Of a stretch of DNA of 32,143 nucleotides, positions 408 through 26,296 are shown in pieces. Source of the DNA: Bacillota bacterium (GTDB lineage Bacteria; Bacillota; Bacilli; Alicyclobacillales; SLC66); assembly GCA_021785975.1 (NCBI GenBank), contig JAJYOE010000005.1:1-32143 (forward strand), read 5' to 3'. Position numbers and translations under genes: made by a program. How positions within the stretch are numbered: the first letter of the stretch is position 1; every line of letters starts with the position of its first letter. The notes under the pieces are model-generated. The model saw only the letters and a program-made list of their open reading frames with translations, had not been told where the DNA came from and searched no databases.

Positions 408-944
408 TTAAGCAGATGCACTGGAGTTTGGCGGATTGCTGACGGTCGTGCCAGATGGTGTCCAATTTCCGTGTCTTTGGCCATGATCAAAGCCATGTCC
501 CGGCATCGAAGGCATCGTTCCATTAACGAGGTTGGTAATTTGCTGATTGAGACGGGTGAGCATTTGCTGTTCTTGTGTGCTAGTCATTTTTCCACTACTC
601 ACTGCCTGATCAAGATTAGACTTGGCAGAGTTTTCGAGATCTGTAATCAAGGTCGTTGTTGAGACACCTTGTGCTTGCGCAATACTGGCGATGGATTTAC
701 CGGCCTTCAAATCGGATTGCAATGTCGTCGTACTGAGGTTTAAGTCTTTTGCCAAAGTGGACATGAAGTTCCCCATCATTCCTGGTCCACCCCAACCGCC
801 TTGCCCGTGATGGAAGCATGAGGTGGTCGTCGATGTCGATGAGTTGCTGTTTGGTGTTGTCGTCGCTGCATAGGCAGAAATCGAAGCGCCAATGACTCCT
901 GCTGCGATCAGAGTACCAATCAAAGTCTTAGGTATTTTACGCAT
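408..944 (-). CDS. Secreted His/Met/Gly-rich protein with one copy of the repeat domain seen in 5687-6613
   Basis: Signal peptide; ATG at 944 has AAGGAG at good spacing (the listed GTG at 956 overlaps the RBS). Contains LAKDLNLSTTTLQSDLKAGKSIASIAQAQGVSTTTL, similar to the 5687-6613 product. Confidence 0.8.
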   Translation of the reverse strand: MRKIPKTLIGTLIAAGVIGASISAYAATTTPNSNSSTSTTTSCFHHGQGGWGGPGMMGNFMSTLAKDLNLSTTTLQSDLKAGKSIASIAQAQGVSTTTLITDLENSAKSNLDQAVSSGKMTSTQEQQMLTRLNQQITNLVNGTMPSMPGHGFDHGQRHGNWTPSGTTVSNPPNSSASA

Positions 945-1067
945 TTGATGTTTCACTCCTTGGTGTTGATTTATTTACAAGCCCCATCTTCTATCATCAC
1001 GCTGTAAAAATCCTGTATGAAATCTGTGCTACATTAACGACATGGGGATTATTTAGCTGGAGGGAAC

Positions 1068-5686: not shown

Positions 5687-6613
5687 ATGAAAAACATGAA
5701 ATTGATCACAGCAGTCGGGGCACTTGCCATCGCCACGTTAACGCTTGGCAGCACATTGACGTTTGCTGCCACCAATTCGAGTGCCACTTCTAATTCAAAC
5801 ACGCCAACCGGGATCAATTCATCGCAGGCACAAGGGCAATTGATGGGCAAGAGAAGACCACCTGCACCGCTCCCGCCAAGTGAACTGGCAAAAGCGTTAA
5901 ACATCAGCGTCAGCACACTTCGAAGCGATCTGCAAAGCGGACAATCACTACTTGACATTGCTACAACTCAGGGGATCAGCGAAAGCACTTTGGAGCAAAC
6001 CTTGACGACTTTCGTCGATGGACATATTCAAACCATGGTCAACAGTGGAAAGCTGACCTCCACACAGGCCACGAATGCGGAAGCAGCATTTGCAAAACGT
6101 TTACCAACTATGTTGTCTCATAAGGGACTCCCGCCTCGTCCGGGGCAGGGACCTATGGGAGATCATGGGCCGGGCAATGGGCAAGTCTCCGCAATTGGGC
6201 AAGGTCCTGCACAAGGGCAATTCATGGGCAAGAGAAGACCGCCTGCACCGATCCCGCCAAGTGAACTGGCAAAAGCATTAAACGTTAGTGTCAGCACGAT
6301 TCGAAGCGATTTGCAAAGCGGACAATCACTGCTTGACATTGCTACGACTCAAGGGATCAGCGAAAGCGCATTGGAGCAAACGTTGACAACATATGTCGAC
6401 GGGCAAATTCAAACATTAGTCAGCAGTGGAAAGCTGACCTCCACACAGGCGACGAATGCGGAAGCAGCATTTGCGAAGCGTTTACCGAACATGTTGTCTC
6501 ATAAGGGGCTCCCGCCACGTCCAGACCAAGGTCAAGGTAAAGGTTGGGGTCCGGCGAACGGTCAGGGAGCGCTTAGTGGGCAAACGTCATCTGCAGGGAA
6601 TTCCAACTCTTAA
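5687..6613 (+). CDS. Secreted protein with two tandem copies of a repeat domain, linked by Gly/Gln-rich segments
   Basis: Signal peptide; LAKALNISVSTLRSDLQSGQSLLDIATTQGISESTLEQTLTT and LAKALNVSVSTIRSDLQSGQSLLDIATTQGISESALEQTLTT; RBS aggagg. Confidence 0.85.
   Translation: MKNMKLITAVGALAIATLTLGSTLTFAATNSSATSNSNTPTGINSSQAQGQLMGKRRPPAPLPPSELAKALNISVSTLRSDLQSGQSLLDIATTQGISESTLEQTLTTFVDGHIQTMVNSGKLTSTQATNAEAAFAKRLPTMLSHKGLPPRPGQGPMGDHGPGNGQVSAIGQGPAQGQFMGKRRPPAPIPPSELAKALNVSVSTIRSDLQSGQSLLDIATTQGISESALEQTLTTYVDGQIQTLVSSGKLTSTQATNAEAAFAKRLPNMLSHKGLPPRPDQGQGKGWGPANGQGALSGQTSSAGNSNS
5831..6531 (+). repeat. Tandem in-gene duplication, about 320 bp repeated with a 381 bp (127 codon) period
   Basis: 5831-6150 and 6212-6531 align with few nucleotide differences (e.g. 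caagggcaattNatgggcaagagaagacc, gcggacaatcact). Confidence 0.93.
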
Positions 6614-22941: not shown

Positions 22942-22970
22942 TTGCTAAACTCCTCGATAAAGACTAGAGT
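22942..22970 (+). promoter_or_regulatory. Candidate sigma-A promoter for the flavinylation cassette
   Basis: TTGCTA - 17 nt - TAGAGT upstream of the ATG at 23002. Confidence 0.4.
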
Positions 22971-23001
22971 AGCCTATTTTAATTTAGAGGAGTTCACATT
23001 C

Positions 23002-23631
23002 ATGGCGAAAAAGATGGGTAAACGATTAATGGGAATTTGTGGGGTAGCTGTCACTGCTGTTTACGCTGCAGGTTATATTTATACAATGCCATCGGCACAA
23101 GCAAACGCTGCTAGTGCATCGCTTCCTGCCGCTTCGACAAGCACCCCTGCGTCCTCTGGCGCGTCGGCAAGTGCATCTGCGTCTTCTTCCACCCCCACTA
23201 CTAATACTGCTAAGCATACCTCAAAGCAACATTCAACGTCATCACAAAATCATCAATCTACGAAATCATCGTCAACATCGTCAACATCGTCCACATCGTC
23301 GACATCGACATCGAAATCATCATCATCAGCATCATCCAAAAAGTCGCAAGCCGCATCCACTGCCAAATATAAAGACGGCACATTTACCGGAACGGGGACC
23401 AACTCCTATGGCACCTGCTCCGTGGCGGTAACGATTCAGCACGGCAAGATTGTTTCAGCAAAAATCACCAATTACATGATGCACTATCCCCAGTATTATA
23501 TTGATCCGCAGTTACCCCAGGAAGTAGTGTCCATGCAGACATGGCAGATTTATATTGTTTCTGGCGCAACGGCAAGTACCTACAATTTTGCAGAAGCCGT
23601 GTATTATGCACTTCAAAAGGCGAAGGCATAA
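23002..23631 (+). CDS. Exported FMN-binding domain protein with a long Ser/Thr-rich linker
   Basis: N-terminal TM/signal; Ser/Thr/Lys linker; FMN_bind-like domain YKDGTFTGTGTNSYGTCSVAVTIQHGKIVSAKI...IYIVSGATAST with the SGAT flavinylation motif. ATG at 23002, RBS agaggag. Confidence 0.88.
   Translation: MAKKMGKRLMGICGVAVTAVYAAGYIYTMPSAQANAASASLPAASTSTPASSGASASASASSSTPTTNTAKHTSKQHSTSSQNHQSTKSSSTSSTSSTSSTSTSKSSSSASSKKSQAASTAKYKDGTFTGTGTNSYGTCSVAVTIQHGKIVSAKITNYMMHYPQYYIDPQLPQEVVSMQTWQIYIVSGATASTYNFAEAVYYALQKAKA
23269..23304 (+). repeat. Four tandem 9-bp repeats (TCGTCAACA-type) coding Ser-Ser-Thr
   Basis: tcgtcaaca tcgtcaaca tcgtccaca tcgtcgaca, flanked by further tca/tcg-rich sequence to about 23337. 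Confidence 0.9.
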
Positions 23632-23659
23632 TGATGAATTGTCAGTTTAGGAGGCAATC

Positions 23660-24589
23660 ATGGAGTTACCATCAAAGTATCGAATGACTTCTGATTCACG
23701 GTTGCTCATGGGGACGCTCGTGAACATCCAGGTCGTGGGCAATGAGGTGGCGAATGTCATAGACAACGCGATTGAAAAGGCGTTTTCTGCGATGCATTTT
23801 GTTGAGGCAATGTGTAGCCGTTTTGATGACCAAAGTGCGCTACGTGAACTGTGCAGACATCCTGGAGAGTGGATGAAGGTTCCTGACGTGCTGTTTGAAA
23901 CCCTTCGTTTGGCGTTAACGATGAGTGAACTGACGGATGGCGCTTTTGACCCTACTATTGGGAACTTGCTTGATCGCCATGGTTTTAATACCCATTATTT
24001 GACGGGTGAAGTGATTAGTATTGATGCTGACGCACAAGAAAAGGTCAGTTTTCGCGATATTAGTCTTGATGAAGAGGCTCGGAATGTCTACTTACATAAA
24101 CCAATGCTTCTTGATTTAGGGGCTGTGGCAAAAGGGTTTGCTGTGGACCTTGCGGCAAAAGAACTGTCTGAATTTAAGGGGGTTGCCATCAATGCCGGAG
24201 GAGACCTATTCCTTAAAGGGGTAGATCCCACAGGGGAAATCTGGAAAGTGGGGATACAACACCCTAAAGACAAAGAGGCCATGATTGCCTGGCTAAGTAT
24301 TACCGATGCTGCGGTTTGCACCTCCGGCACTTATGAGCGTAGGAGCCCCATTAATCAGGAGATTCACCATCTGTTTGATTTCACAACAGGCCAAAGCACC
24401 AAAGGATTGGTAAGCTGCACTGTGATCGCGCCGTTCGCCATGCTAGCAGATGCGGTGTCCACCGCTGCATTTGTACTTGGCAAAGATCGCGCGCTGGATT
24501 TTGTCAATGAGTTGGAACTCGATGCACTATGTATTGATGATTCACTGGAAATTTCAATGACAGATGCGATGGAGAGGTATTTAGGATGA
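23660..24589 (+). CDS. apbE: FAD:protein FMN transferase
   Basis: LMGTLVNIQVVG, MCSRFDDQSALREL, TDGAFDPTIGNLLD, LDLGAVAKGFAVDLAAKEL, AINAGGDLFLKG, AVCTSGTYER; RBS aggagg. Confidence 0.93.
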   Translation: MELPSKYRMTSDSRLLMGTLVNIQVVGNEVANVIDNAIEKAFSAMHFVEAMCSRFDDQSALRELCRHPGEWMKVPDVLFETLRLALTMSELTDGAFDPTIGNLLDRHGFNTHYLTGEVISIDADAQEKVSFRDISLDEEARNVYLHKPMLLDLGAVAKGFAVDLAAKELSEFKGVAINAGGDLFLKGVDPTGEIWKVGIQHPKDKEAMIAWLSITDAAVCTSGTYERRSPINQEIHHLFDFTTGQSTKGLVSCTVIAPFAMLADAVSTAAFVLGKDRALDFVNELELDALCIDDSLEISMTDAMERYLG

Positions 24590-25404
24590 ATTTAGACAAA
24601 CTGATGAAAACGCCAAAAGGATATTTGCTGGCTATATTGATAGGGTTAACGCTGGTGGCGTCGCTTCGTCCTCAGGATCATATCGGACTTTTGAATGCGG
24701 GTATTGCTGTCATCACCGCGCTCGCGATCGATGGAATTGTCGCGAAGTTGTATAAAAATAAAAAGAAGTTCTCCGATGGCGGGATGATCACCGCGTTAAT
24801 CATCGCGAATGTGCTTAGTAATACGACGCCTTGGTACATCATCGTGGCGACTACGGCAGTGGCGCTACTTTCAAAGCACATCATCAAGTCGGGGAGAAAA
24901 CCGATTTTCAATCCGGCAGCATTTGGCCTTTTATTCGCCATTTACATCTTTTCTACCGGACAAAGCTGGTGGGGTAGTCTGGCTTTACTTCCCACGTGGC
25001 TAATACTGATCATGATCGTACCAGGCATCTTTATCTCCATCAAAGTAAATAAGTTTCCGCAGGTCGCCTCGTTTTTGGGCATGTATTTTGTGCTGATGTT
25101 GATCATGGCCGTTTTTCATTTGGGATTGCCTTACGACACGCCGGCGGACGCACTCCGTATTCCATTCGTCAATTCAGCGATTTATCTCGCGTTTTTTATG
25201 CTTACCGATCCTCCTACCACACCATCCACCTATCCGAAGCAAATCGTGTTTGGTAGTTTGGTCGCGATCGTAGGTTCAATCATCTTTGCTAATTATGGAG
25301 GACTAGCTTACTTGTTGATCGGTCTCTTGGCCGGAAATCTGGTGAATTTTACTTTTATGAGAGCGAGGCAAAAAAAAATGAGCGAAGTGGTGATTGAACA
25401 CTAA
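24586..25404 (+). CDS. RnfD/NqrB-like integral membrane protein
   Basis: Multiple TM helices; GRKPIFNPAAFGLLFAI and FFMLTDPPTTPSTYPKQIVFGSL typical of the NQR2/RnfD/RnfE family; ATGA overlap with apbE. Confidence 0.85.
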   Translation: MNLDKLMKTPKGYLLAILIGLTLVASLRPQDHIGLLNAGIAVITALAIDGIVAKLYKNKKKFSDGGMITALIIANVLSNTTPWYIIVATTAVALLSKHIIKSGRKPIFNPAAFGLLFAIYIFSTGQSWWGSLALLPTWLILIMIVPGIFISIKVNKFPQVASFLGMYFVLMLIMAVFHLGLPYDTPADALRIPFVNSAIYLAFFMLTDPPTTPSTYPKQIVFGSLVAIVGSIIFANYGGLAYLLIGLLAGNLVNFTFMRARQKKMSEVVIEH

Positions 25405-25474
25405 AAAAGTTTTTTGATATTGTGATGTTTTATCATACAATGAGGACAGAGGCCAAAAGGGGGCATGTGTAGTA

Positions 25475-26296
25475 GTGGACGCTGAAATTCTTCAGCATTT
25501 TGCGAAAGTGTCTGAATTTTGGAATTTGTTATGTATGGATGATACGACCATAGGTGTATCTGACACGGAAAAGTTTATTGCCTATGTTCCCGGAAAAACA
25601 TTTTCGTTAGGGATTAAAGTGGGCGATCCGATCAAACCAGGAAGCATTACTCATCAAGCATTGACCTCAGGATTAAGGCAGCAGACTTTTGTGCCTAAAG
25701 AAGTTTTTGGAGTACCTACGATTGCCATAGGGTTTCCCATCATCGTCGATGGGAAAGTAGTCGGTTGTATTTCTACAGCGGTTACGCAGGAGAGACAAAT
25801 GGAACTTCAGCAGGATGCGGAACAAGTCTCTGCTTCCAGCGAAGAACTATCCGCGACGGCAGAACAGTTGGCGGCATCTTCCAATGAGGTTTCGCGTTTA
25901 ATTGAAAATGTAAAAATGCAGGCAGACAGTCTGCGAAAAGAAATTGACCAGATTAACCAGGTGTCGAAATTAGTGCAAGAAGTCACCTCGCAAACCAAAC
26001 TTATCGGCCTTAATGCAAGAATTGAAGCGGCGAGAGCGGGTGATTCGGGAAGGGCTTTTGGCGTAGTGGCAGAAGAAATACAATCTCTTGCGGAGACGAC
26101 GCGCCAGTCGACGGAGGCCATTCAAAAAAGTATCCACAGTGTCATTCAAAGCATTGAAGAACTGACGCAAAGTTCTACCAATGTGAATCTGGCTTCCCAA
26201 GAGCAACTTCAGGCTATTCATACTCTTTCTCAAATGACCGTTCATCTGGCAGACAATGCAGAATCTCTTCGCAATCTTGCACAAGTGGAGCCTTGA
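25475..26296 (+). CDS. Short soluble methyl-accepting chemotaxis-like protein with N-terminal sensory domain
   Basis: GTG start; no TM helix; signalling tip SQTKLIGLNARIEAARAGDSGRAFGVVAEEIQSLAETT; YfmS-like architecture. Confidence 0.85.
   Translation: MDAEILQHFAKVSEFWNLLCMDDTTIGVSDTEKFIAYVPGKTFSLGIKVGDPIKPGSITHQALTSGLRQQTFVPKEVFGVPTIAIGFPIIVDGKVVGCISTAVTQERQMELQQDAEQVSASSEELSATAEQLAASSNEVSRLIENVKMQADSLRKEIDQINQVSKLVQEVTSQTKLIGLNARIEAARAGDSGRAFGVVAEEIQSLAETTRQSTEAIQKSIHSVIQSIEELTQSSTNVNLASQEQLQAIHTLSQMTVHLADNAESLRNLAQVEP

Follow-up and report, generated by a model that had tools for sequence, protein, structure and literature searches.

The closest described relatives of the locus reported here are the NQR/RNF-like systems (Meheust 2021, PMC8238504; Huang 2024, PMC10979944), recorded as 127 clusters, mainly in Actinobacteria and CPR (PMC8238504). 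In the Rnf and Nqr complexes themselves, RnfD or NqrB holds two flavins, an FMN bound covalently to a threonine close to the outer face and a riboflavin that lies closer to the cytosol; electrons leave the FMN_bind subunit for NqrB/RnfD, from which they reach quinone or RnfC (PMC9325719, PMC10643135, PMC9588780). By cryo-EM, the riboflavin is flanked by Asn124 and Asp248 in the RnfD of C. tetanomorphum (PMC9588780), and in NqrB it contacts Thr162, Asn203 and Asp346 (PMC9325719, PMC10643135). The flavinylation threonine has also been lost in the NAD-fused NQR/RNF-like system, where the FMN of the partner subunit was proposed to visit the non-covalent site (Huang et al. 2024, PMC10979944). As to how the FMN is attached, those exported FMN_bind proteins that have been characterised receive it outside, from a secreted or lipidated ApbE, and cytosolic ApbEs have been described only for cytosolic or fused substrates (review, PMC12052999). 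The 2021 flavinylation survey retained every cluster in which at least one target gene had a signal peptide (PMC8238504), so that a signal-less ApbE with an exported substrate could pass unremarked.

The window, by which we mean the whole stretch of 32,143 nucleotides analysed, belongs to a 1.36 Mb MAG of Bacilli (G000, 60.5% complete). Between 23002 and 25404 it encodes an anchored FMN_bind protein, an ApbE and an RnfD/NqrB-like membrane protein, with the following features:

23002..23631, + strand: gene 1, membrane-anchored FMN_bind protein of 209 aa (Pfam, profile, ATG behind GAGGAG), with a TM/signal segment at aa 9-28, an S/T/A-rich linker at aa ~36-119 and the FMN_bind domain at aa ~120-209
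23557..23580, + strand: flavinylation motif VSGATAST within gene 1, with Thr190 as the predicted FMN site
23660..24589, + strand: gene 2, ApbE-type FAD:protein FMN transferase of 309 aa, without signal peptide (Pfam; ribosome-binding site GGAGG)
24586..25404, + strand: gene 3, RnfD/NqrB-like integral membrane protein of 272 aa (Pfam; T69, N109 and D208 retained)
25414..25441, + strand: promoter-like site TTGATA-16-TACAAT between the cassette and the fourth gene (consensus match only)

A previous inspection of the DNA, the sequence-only reading, had noted three consecutive genes, the last two overlapping by ATGA, and a first product with a TM/signal segment, a Ser/Thr-rich linker of about 85 residues and one FMN_bind-like domain ending IYIVSGATAST. 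All of this is present: the overlap is at 24586-24589, there is one signal/TM segment, the linker is rich in Ala as well, and the FMN domain has a single SGAT motif. The start of gene 1, which had been placed at a TTG (22942), was 60 bases too early and is most likely the ATG at 23002, which fits best with its GAGGAG ribosome-binding site. Pfam bears out the proposed identity of gene 2 (ApbE, PF02424; 219.5 bits, full domain), in which the conserved blocks are seen against TM1553 and other solved transferases, and of gene 3 (NQR2_RnfD_RnfE, PF03116; 56.1 bits in two stretches, cut-off 27.7). The FMN_bind assignment (PF04205), however, is marginal for the window member alone, with 21.5 bits in hmmscan (cut-off 22) and 24.4 in the genome search, and draws its support from the orthologues: 30 of 34 match the family at E <= 0.01, all those aligned possess [ST]GAT, and a profile built from 34 homologues matches the solved FMN-binding domain 8p2a in the PDB (E 1.7e-10).

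The arrangement is real and not due to chance, as the gene order is kept in dozens of genomes. The survey covered Bacillota, the host group being mostly uncultured Bacilli; relatives were searched and 6-18 kb around the matches extracted, giving 47 loci including the window. In 44 of these the RnfD-like gene is preceded by an FMN_bind gene; the three exceptions are two contig ends and one lone RnfD-like gene (L062). The order FMN_bind-ApbE-RnfD-like was also found in all eight loci from outside the order (class- and phylum-wide searches). Over all uncut, unbroken loci, FMN_bind is upstream of the RnfD-like gene in 52/53 and ApbE is present too in 45/53. Within the order, 40 of 59 genomes have the RnfD-like gene; PF04205 was found in 34 of these 40 and in none of the other 19 (Fisher p = 1e-10, a value that ignores shared ancestry and is indicative only). 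ApbE occurs in 58/59 genomes, and the unit is therefore defined by the pairing of FMN_bind with the RnfD-like gene. The three genes are thus a conserved unit, and the idea that their order might be conserved in no relative fails. A second, frameshifted RnfD-like copy without FMN_bind, apparently decaying, was seen in one genome (G619; L151:8080-8570).

Among homologues of the RnfD-like protein, 32/32 scanned match PF03116, and a profile of 32 homologues matches the RnfD chains 9eri, 8ahx and 7zc6 in the PDB, unlike a search with the single sequence, which returned no match; an AlphaFold2 model from four sequences (pLDDT 45) was too poor for use. In a tree, the cassette proteins, Clostridial RnfD and a third group from Bacilli form separate, well-supported sets (cassette support 99/96). 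The S/T-x-A-T motif of the five-helix linker, the threonine of which carries the covalent FMN in NqrB and RnfD, is missing here. The sequence-only reading had remarked on its absence from the window member, and this extends to 47 RnfD-like proteins, bar a chance TGAT in one disordered N-terminus. The residues of the riboflavin site are kept: T69, N109 and D208 align with Thr83, Asn124 and Asp248 of the 7zc6 RnfD and are retained in 31/32, 32/32 and 32/32 cassette proteins, and the same Thr, Asn and Asp are found in nearly all of 28 Clostridial RnfDs. Through the RnfD alignment, T69 would be the counterpart of Thr162 in NqrB. Three residues before N109, P106 is Pro in 30/32 cassette proteins and Asn in 28/28 Clostridial RnfDs; judged by spacing, this position would correspond to the ribityl-contacting Asn200 of NqrB, so that the pocket is altered and the bound flavin could differ.

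A distant group of RnfD-like proteins was encountered in Bacilli (L152:7929-9680, L155 and L139-L141; genomes G502, G631, G594 and G604). Its members keep the riboflavin-site Asn and Asp and have no FMN_bind or ApbE gene nearby; G502 and G631 each have two of the genes in tandem, and at L152 the surroundings are synthase genes of fatty-acid/polyketide type and a gene for a VCBS/UnbV-like protein. On a Metabacillus plasmid (NZ_CP088246.1, 160228-161025; L157:8755-9552), the RnfD-like gene overlaps a redoxin gene by 4 bases, which suggests a thioredoxin-like partner in place of FMN_bind.

The sequence-only reading had seen no Rnf or Nqr partner nearby, and the observation can be widened: the membrane core of these complexes (PF02508, comprising RnfA, RnfE, NqrD and NqrE) was detected in 0/59 genomes of the order with control genomes positive, and a complete Rnf or Nqr complex encoded at scattered sites was rejected on this ground. 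Searches with RnfC_N returned short, weak matches only, and none in the window's genome or in G001. The NAD-binding domain PF00175 was found in none of 32 RnfD-like proteins scanned, and in 47 homologues the sequence continues for no more than 40 residues past the membrane domain, so a fused domain missed by annotation was discarded. Co-directional genes next to the cassette, seen in 20 cases downstream and in 18 upstream, are of unrelated families and include no flavin or NAD reductase, ferredoxin or cytochrome. In the window, the cassette is followed by a gene (25475-26296) for a soluble MCP-signalling protein with an N-terminal sensor-like part, as in 3/3 genus members with sequence at that place. 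The MCP-type gene was rejected as a conserved fourth gene or donor, being limited to this genus (three loci) with unrelated neighbours at the other loci; the promoter-like site preceding it suggests that it is transcribed separately. The survey of relatives thus yielded no conserved fourth gene. Two-component genes (response regulators and histidine kinases) lie beside or near the cassette at L045, L050, L056, L062, L066, L070 and L075 and are possible regulators; as a partner, such a system looked promising but was not consistent across loci. Elsewhere in the window, 408-956 (-) and 5687-6613 (+) encode related proteins. The latter has a signal peptide, and in it a stretch, PPSELAKALN.S.STLRSDLQSGQSLLDIATTQGIS..., is duplicated that scores as a helix-turn-helix in Pfam though the protein is exported.

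With moderate confidence, we regard the cassette as a minimal flavin relay across the membrane and as a donor-less form of the NQR/RNF-like systems. We infer its flavin occupancy, docking, direction, donor, acceptor and order of flavinylation and export. The path would lead from the cytosolic or quinone side to a riboflavin in the RnfD-like protein, from there to an outer FMN, and on to an extracytosolic partner with which this FMN would exchange electrons. The anchored FMN_bind protein would carry a single covalent FMN outside, on Thr190, and would dock on the RnfD-like protein at the place left by that protein's lost covalent FMN; the cassette fits the model of a partner FMN visiting a non-covalent site. 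Attachment of the FMN would fall to ApbE, most likely in the cytosol and ahead of export of the FMN_bind protein.

The N-terminus of gene 1 is positively charged, an AxA-like site follows the hydrophobic segment, and the charges flanking the segment point to an N-in/C-out anchor in most orthologues, with positive charge before it and none after. The domain also looks exported by composition: exported-like proteins of the window's genome have on average 16% charged residues (n=22) and cytosolic-like ones 25% (n=89), and at 11% the FMN domain is lower than any of the 89. The extracytosolic placement proposed earlier is therefore what the anchor and the composition predict. Conservation of the TM helix (mean 0.62; Y21, G24, Y25 and T28 being the conserved residues) is near that of the domain (0.68) and well above that of the linker (0.33), which argues for a working, retained membrane helix with specific contacts, although the AxA motif may allow cleavage. 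The emphasis on a long tether is weakened by the variable length of the linker, some 85 residues in the window's protein and 30 to 173 among orthologues. A cytosolic FMN domain on an N-out/C-in anchor, with all the chemistry internal and the RnfD-like protein linking the domain to quinone, would remove the mismatch with a cytosolic ApbE, and a few orthologues do have Lys-rich linkers, but the charge pattern, the AxA site, the low-charge polar domain and the outside position of the NqrC/RnfG domain (PMC9325719, PMC9588780) make this very improbable. ApbE itself appears to stay inside the cell. In contrast to the ApbEs of extracytosolic flavinylation systems, that of the cassette has no signal peptide or lipobox: a heuristic (not SignalP) that called a signal-like segment in 26 of 30 ApbEs from other Bacillota, its calibration set, called none in 51 cassette enzymes and none in 19 further ApbEs sampled in the order, and the window's ApbE is 24% charged, near the cytosolic mean. 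A start-codon error hiding a signal peptide was rejected, since a mere three codons separate the ATG from the stop upstream of it; the 19 other ApbEs sampled offered no signal-bearing enzyme elsewhere in these genomes, and no twin-Arg motif consistent enough for Tat export was seen. Another possible explanation is that ApbE acts outside, exported non-classically or retained on the outer face, and flavinylates its substrate after export as in Listeria and Gram-negatives. The precedent of the characterised exported FMN_bind proteins is of this kind (PMC12052999), but the missing signal segments, the cytosol-like charge and the fact that the cassette ApbE is the sole ApbE in seven genomes at least 97% complete render it quite unlikely. 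A cytosolic ApbE and an exported substrate are hard to reconcile unless flavinylation comes first, and on this simplest reading we predict that it probably precedes export, by a route accepting covalent FMN. The fuller proposal, in which the protein is flavinylated in the cytosol and exported with its FMN attached, with no need for FAD export, to form a stand-alone two-flavin wire from quinone or a cytosolic reductant, is put forward tentatively.

The source and direction of the electrons admit further alternatives. The donor may be a fixed, unlinked cytosolic reductase, the system being an NQR/RNF-like one whose NAD module is encoded apart from it, at another place in the genome; the described relatives have PF00175 fused to the membrane domain (PMC8238504), yet the domain is absent both in and next to the cassette, and we consider such a split somewhat doubtful. 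The homologous step in Rnf and Nqr runs from the FMN_bind subunit to RnfD/NqrB, so that inward flow is also allowed, from an external reductant through the FMN_bind protein and the riboflavin of the RnfD-like protein to menaquinone or a cytosolic acceptor. Of these pathways the cassette retains this half alone, without a cytosolic module through which NADH or ferredoxin could feed in, which would suit an inward relay; against it, the NAD-binding domain fused in the NQR/RNF-like relatives points to outward flow in those systems (PMC8238504), and no extracytosolic dehydrogenase linked to the cassette was found. An inward relay seems unlikely; the NAD-fused relatives argue for outward and the Nqr/Rnf homology for inward flow, with the sequence fixing neither. 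The sequence-only reading had proposed outward flow to a metal, a quinone or a secreted protein, which may be regarded as candidate acceptors. Among acceptors for an outward relay, Fe(III) is plausible: acidophilic Bacillota, Alicyclobacillus tolerans among them, are reported to reduce it (PMC8790237), although nothing in these sequences ties the cassette to iron.

If the cassette is such a relay, the Rnf/Nqr design would be cut to two proteins and two flavins, a test of the minimum required for transmembrane electron movement. It holds nearly all FMN_bind proteins of one order of Bacilli (38/40 PF04205 matches), and its consistently signal-less ApbE calls into question whether flavinylation of exported FMN_bind proteins always takes place outside; cytosolic flavinylation, if true, would free these bacteria from exporting FAD for the purpose. 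At L077-L081 and L073, in several genomes that belong to a single genus of the order, another ApbE without signal peptide adjoins an MsrQ-like/ferric-reductase-type membrane protein some 5-8 kb from the cassette. A review has asked that the mechanism of Fe(III) reduction outside the acidithiobacilli be better understood (PMC8790237), and the cassette may be counted as one candidate for it.

Listeria-type PplA is a lipoprotein with two FMN_bind domains, encoded next to Ndh2, EetA and EetB. The cassette resembles the flavin-based extracellular electron transfer of Listeria (PplA, FmnB, Ndh2, EetAB) in its Gram-positive surface FMN_bind protein and ApbE-type flavinylation, but it has one FMN domain, no lipobox and no Ndh2, EetA or EetB among its neighbours, and it brings an RnfD-like protein and a signal-less ApbE in place of the secreted FmnB. 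The ApbE of Klebsiella pneumoniae (PMC12052999) is likewise cytosolic, though its substrate is the cytosolic fumarate reductase, whereas the substrate linked to the cassette enzyme is predicted to be exported. With the RnfG and RnfD half of Rnf, the cassette shares an anchored FMN_bind protein and an RnfD-like protein with the riboflavin-site Thr, Asn and Asp; it differs by the lack of RnfA/RnfE in the 59 genomes and of a convincing RnfC, by the lost RnfD threonine and by its separate clade. Compared with Na+-NQR, it corresponds to the NqrC and NqrB half, only two of six subunits, with no NqrD/E and no evidence of ion pumping. Most similar are the NQR/RNF-like systems, which also combine FMN_bind with an NqrB/RnfD-like protein without the flavinylation Thr, in the absence of RnfA/E, NqrA/F and, in the cassette's case, a convincing RnfC. 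The signal peptide that these systems show on the FMN_bind or ApbE gene is supplied by the signal/anchor segment of gene 1, and the threonine of the RnfD-like protein is lost in both. They are, however, defined by a cytosolic C-terminal PF00175 NAD-binding domain; lacking it, the cassette falls outside the published definition and is filed as a variant. The cassette also differs from the NQR/RNF-like clusters in its phylogenetic home, Bacilli, and in its unusual ApbE without signal peptide.
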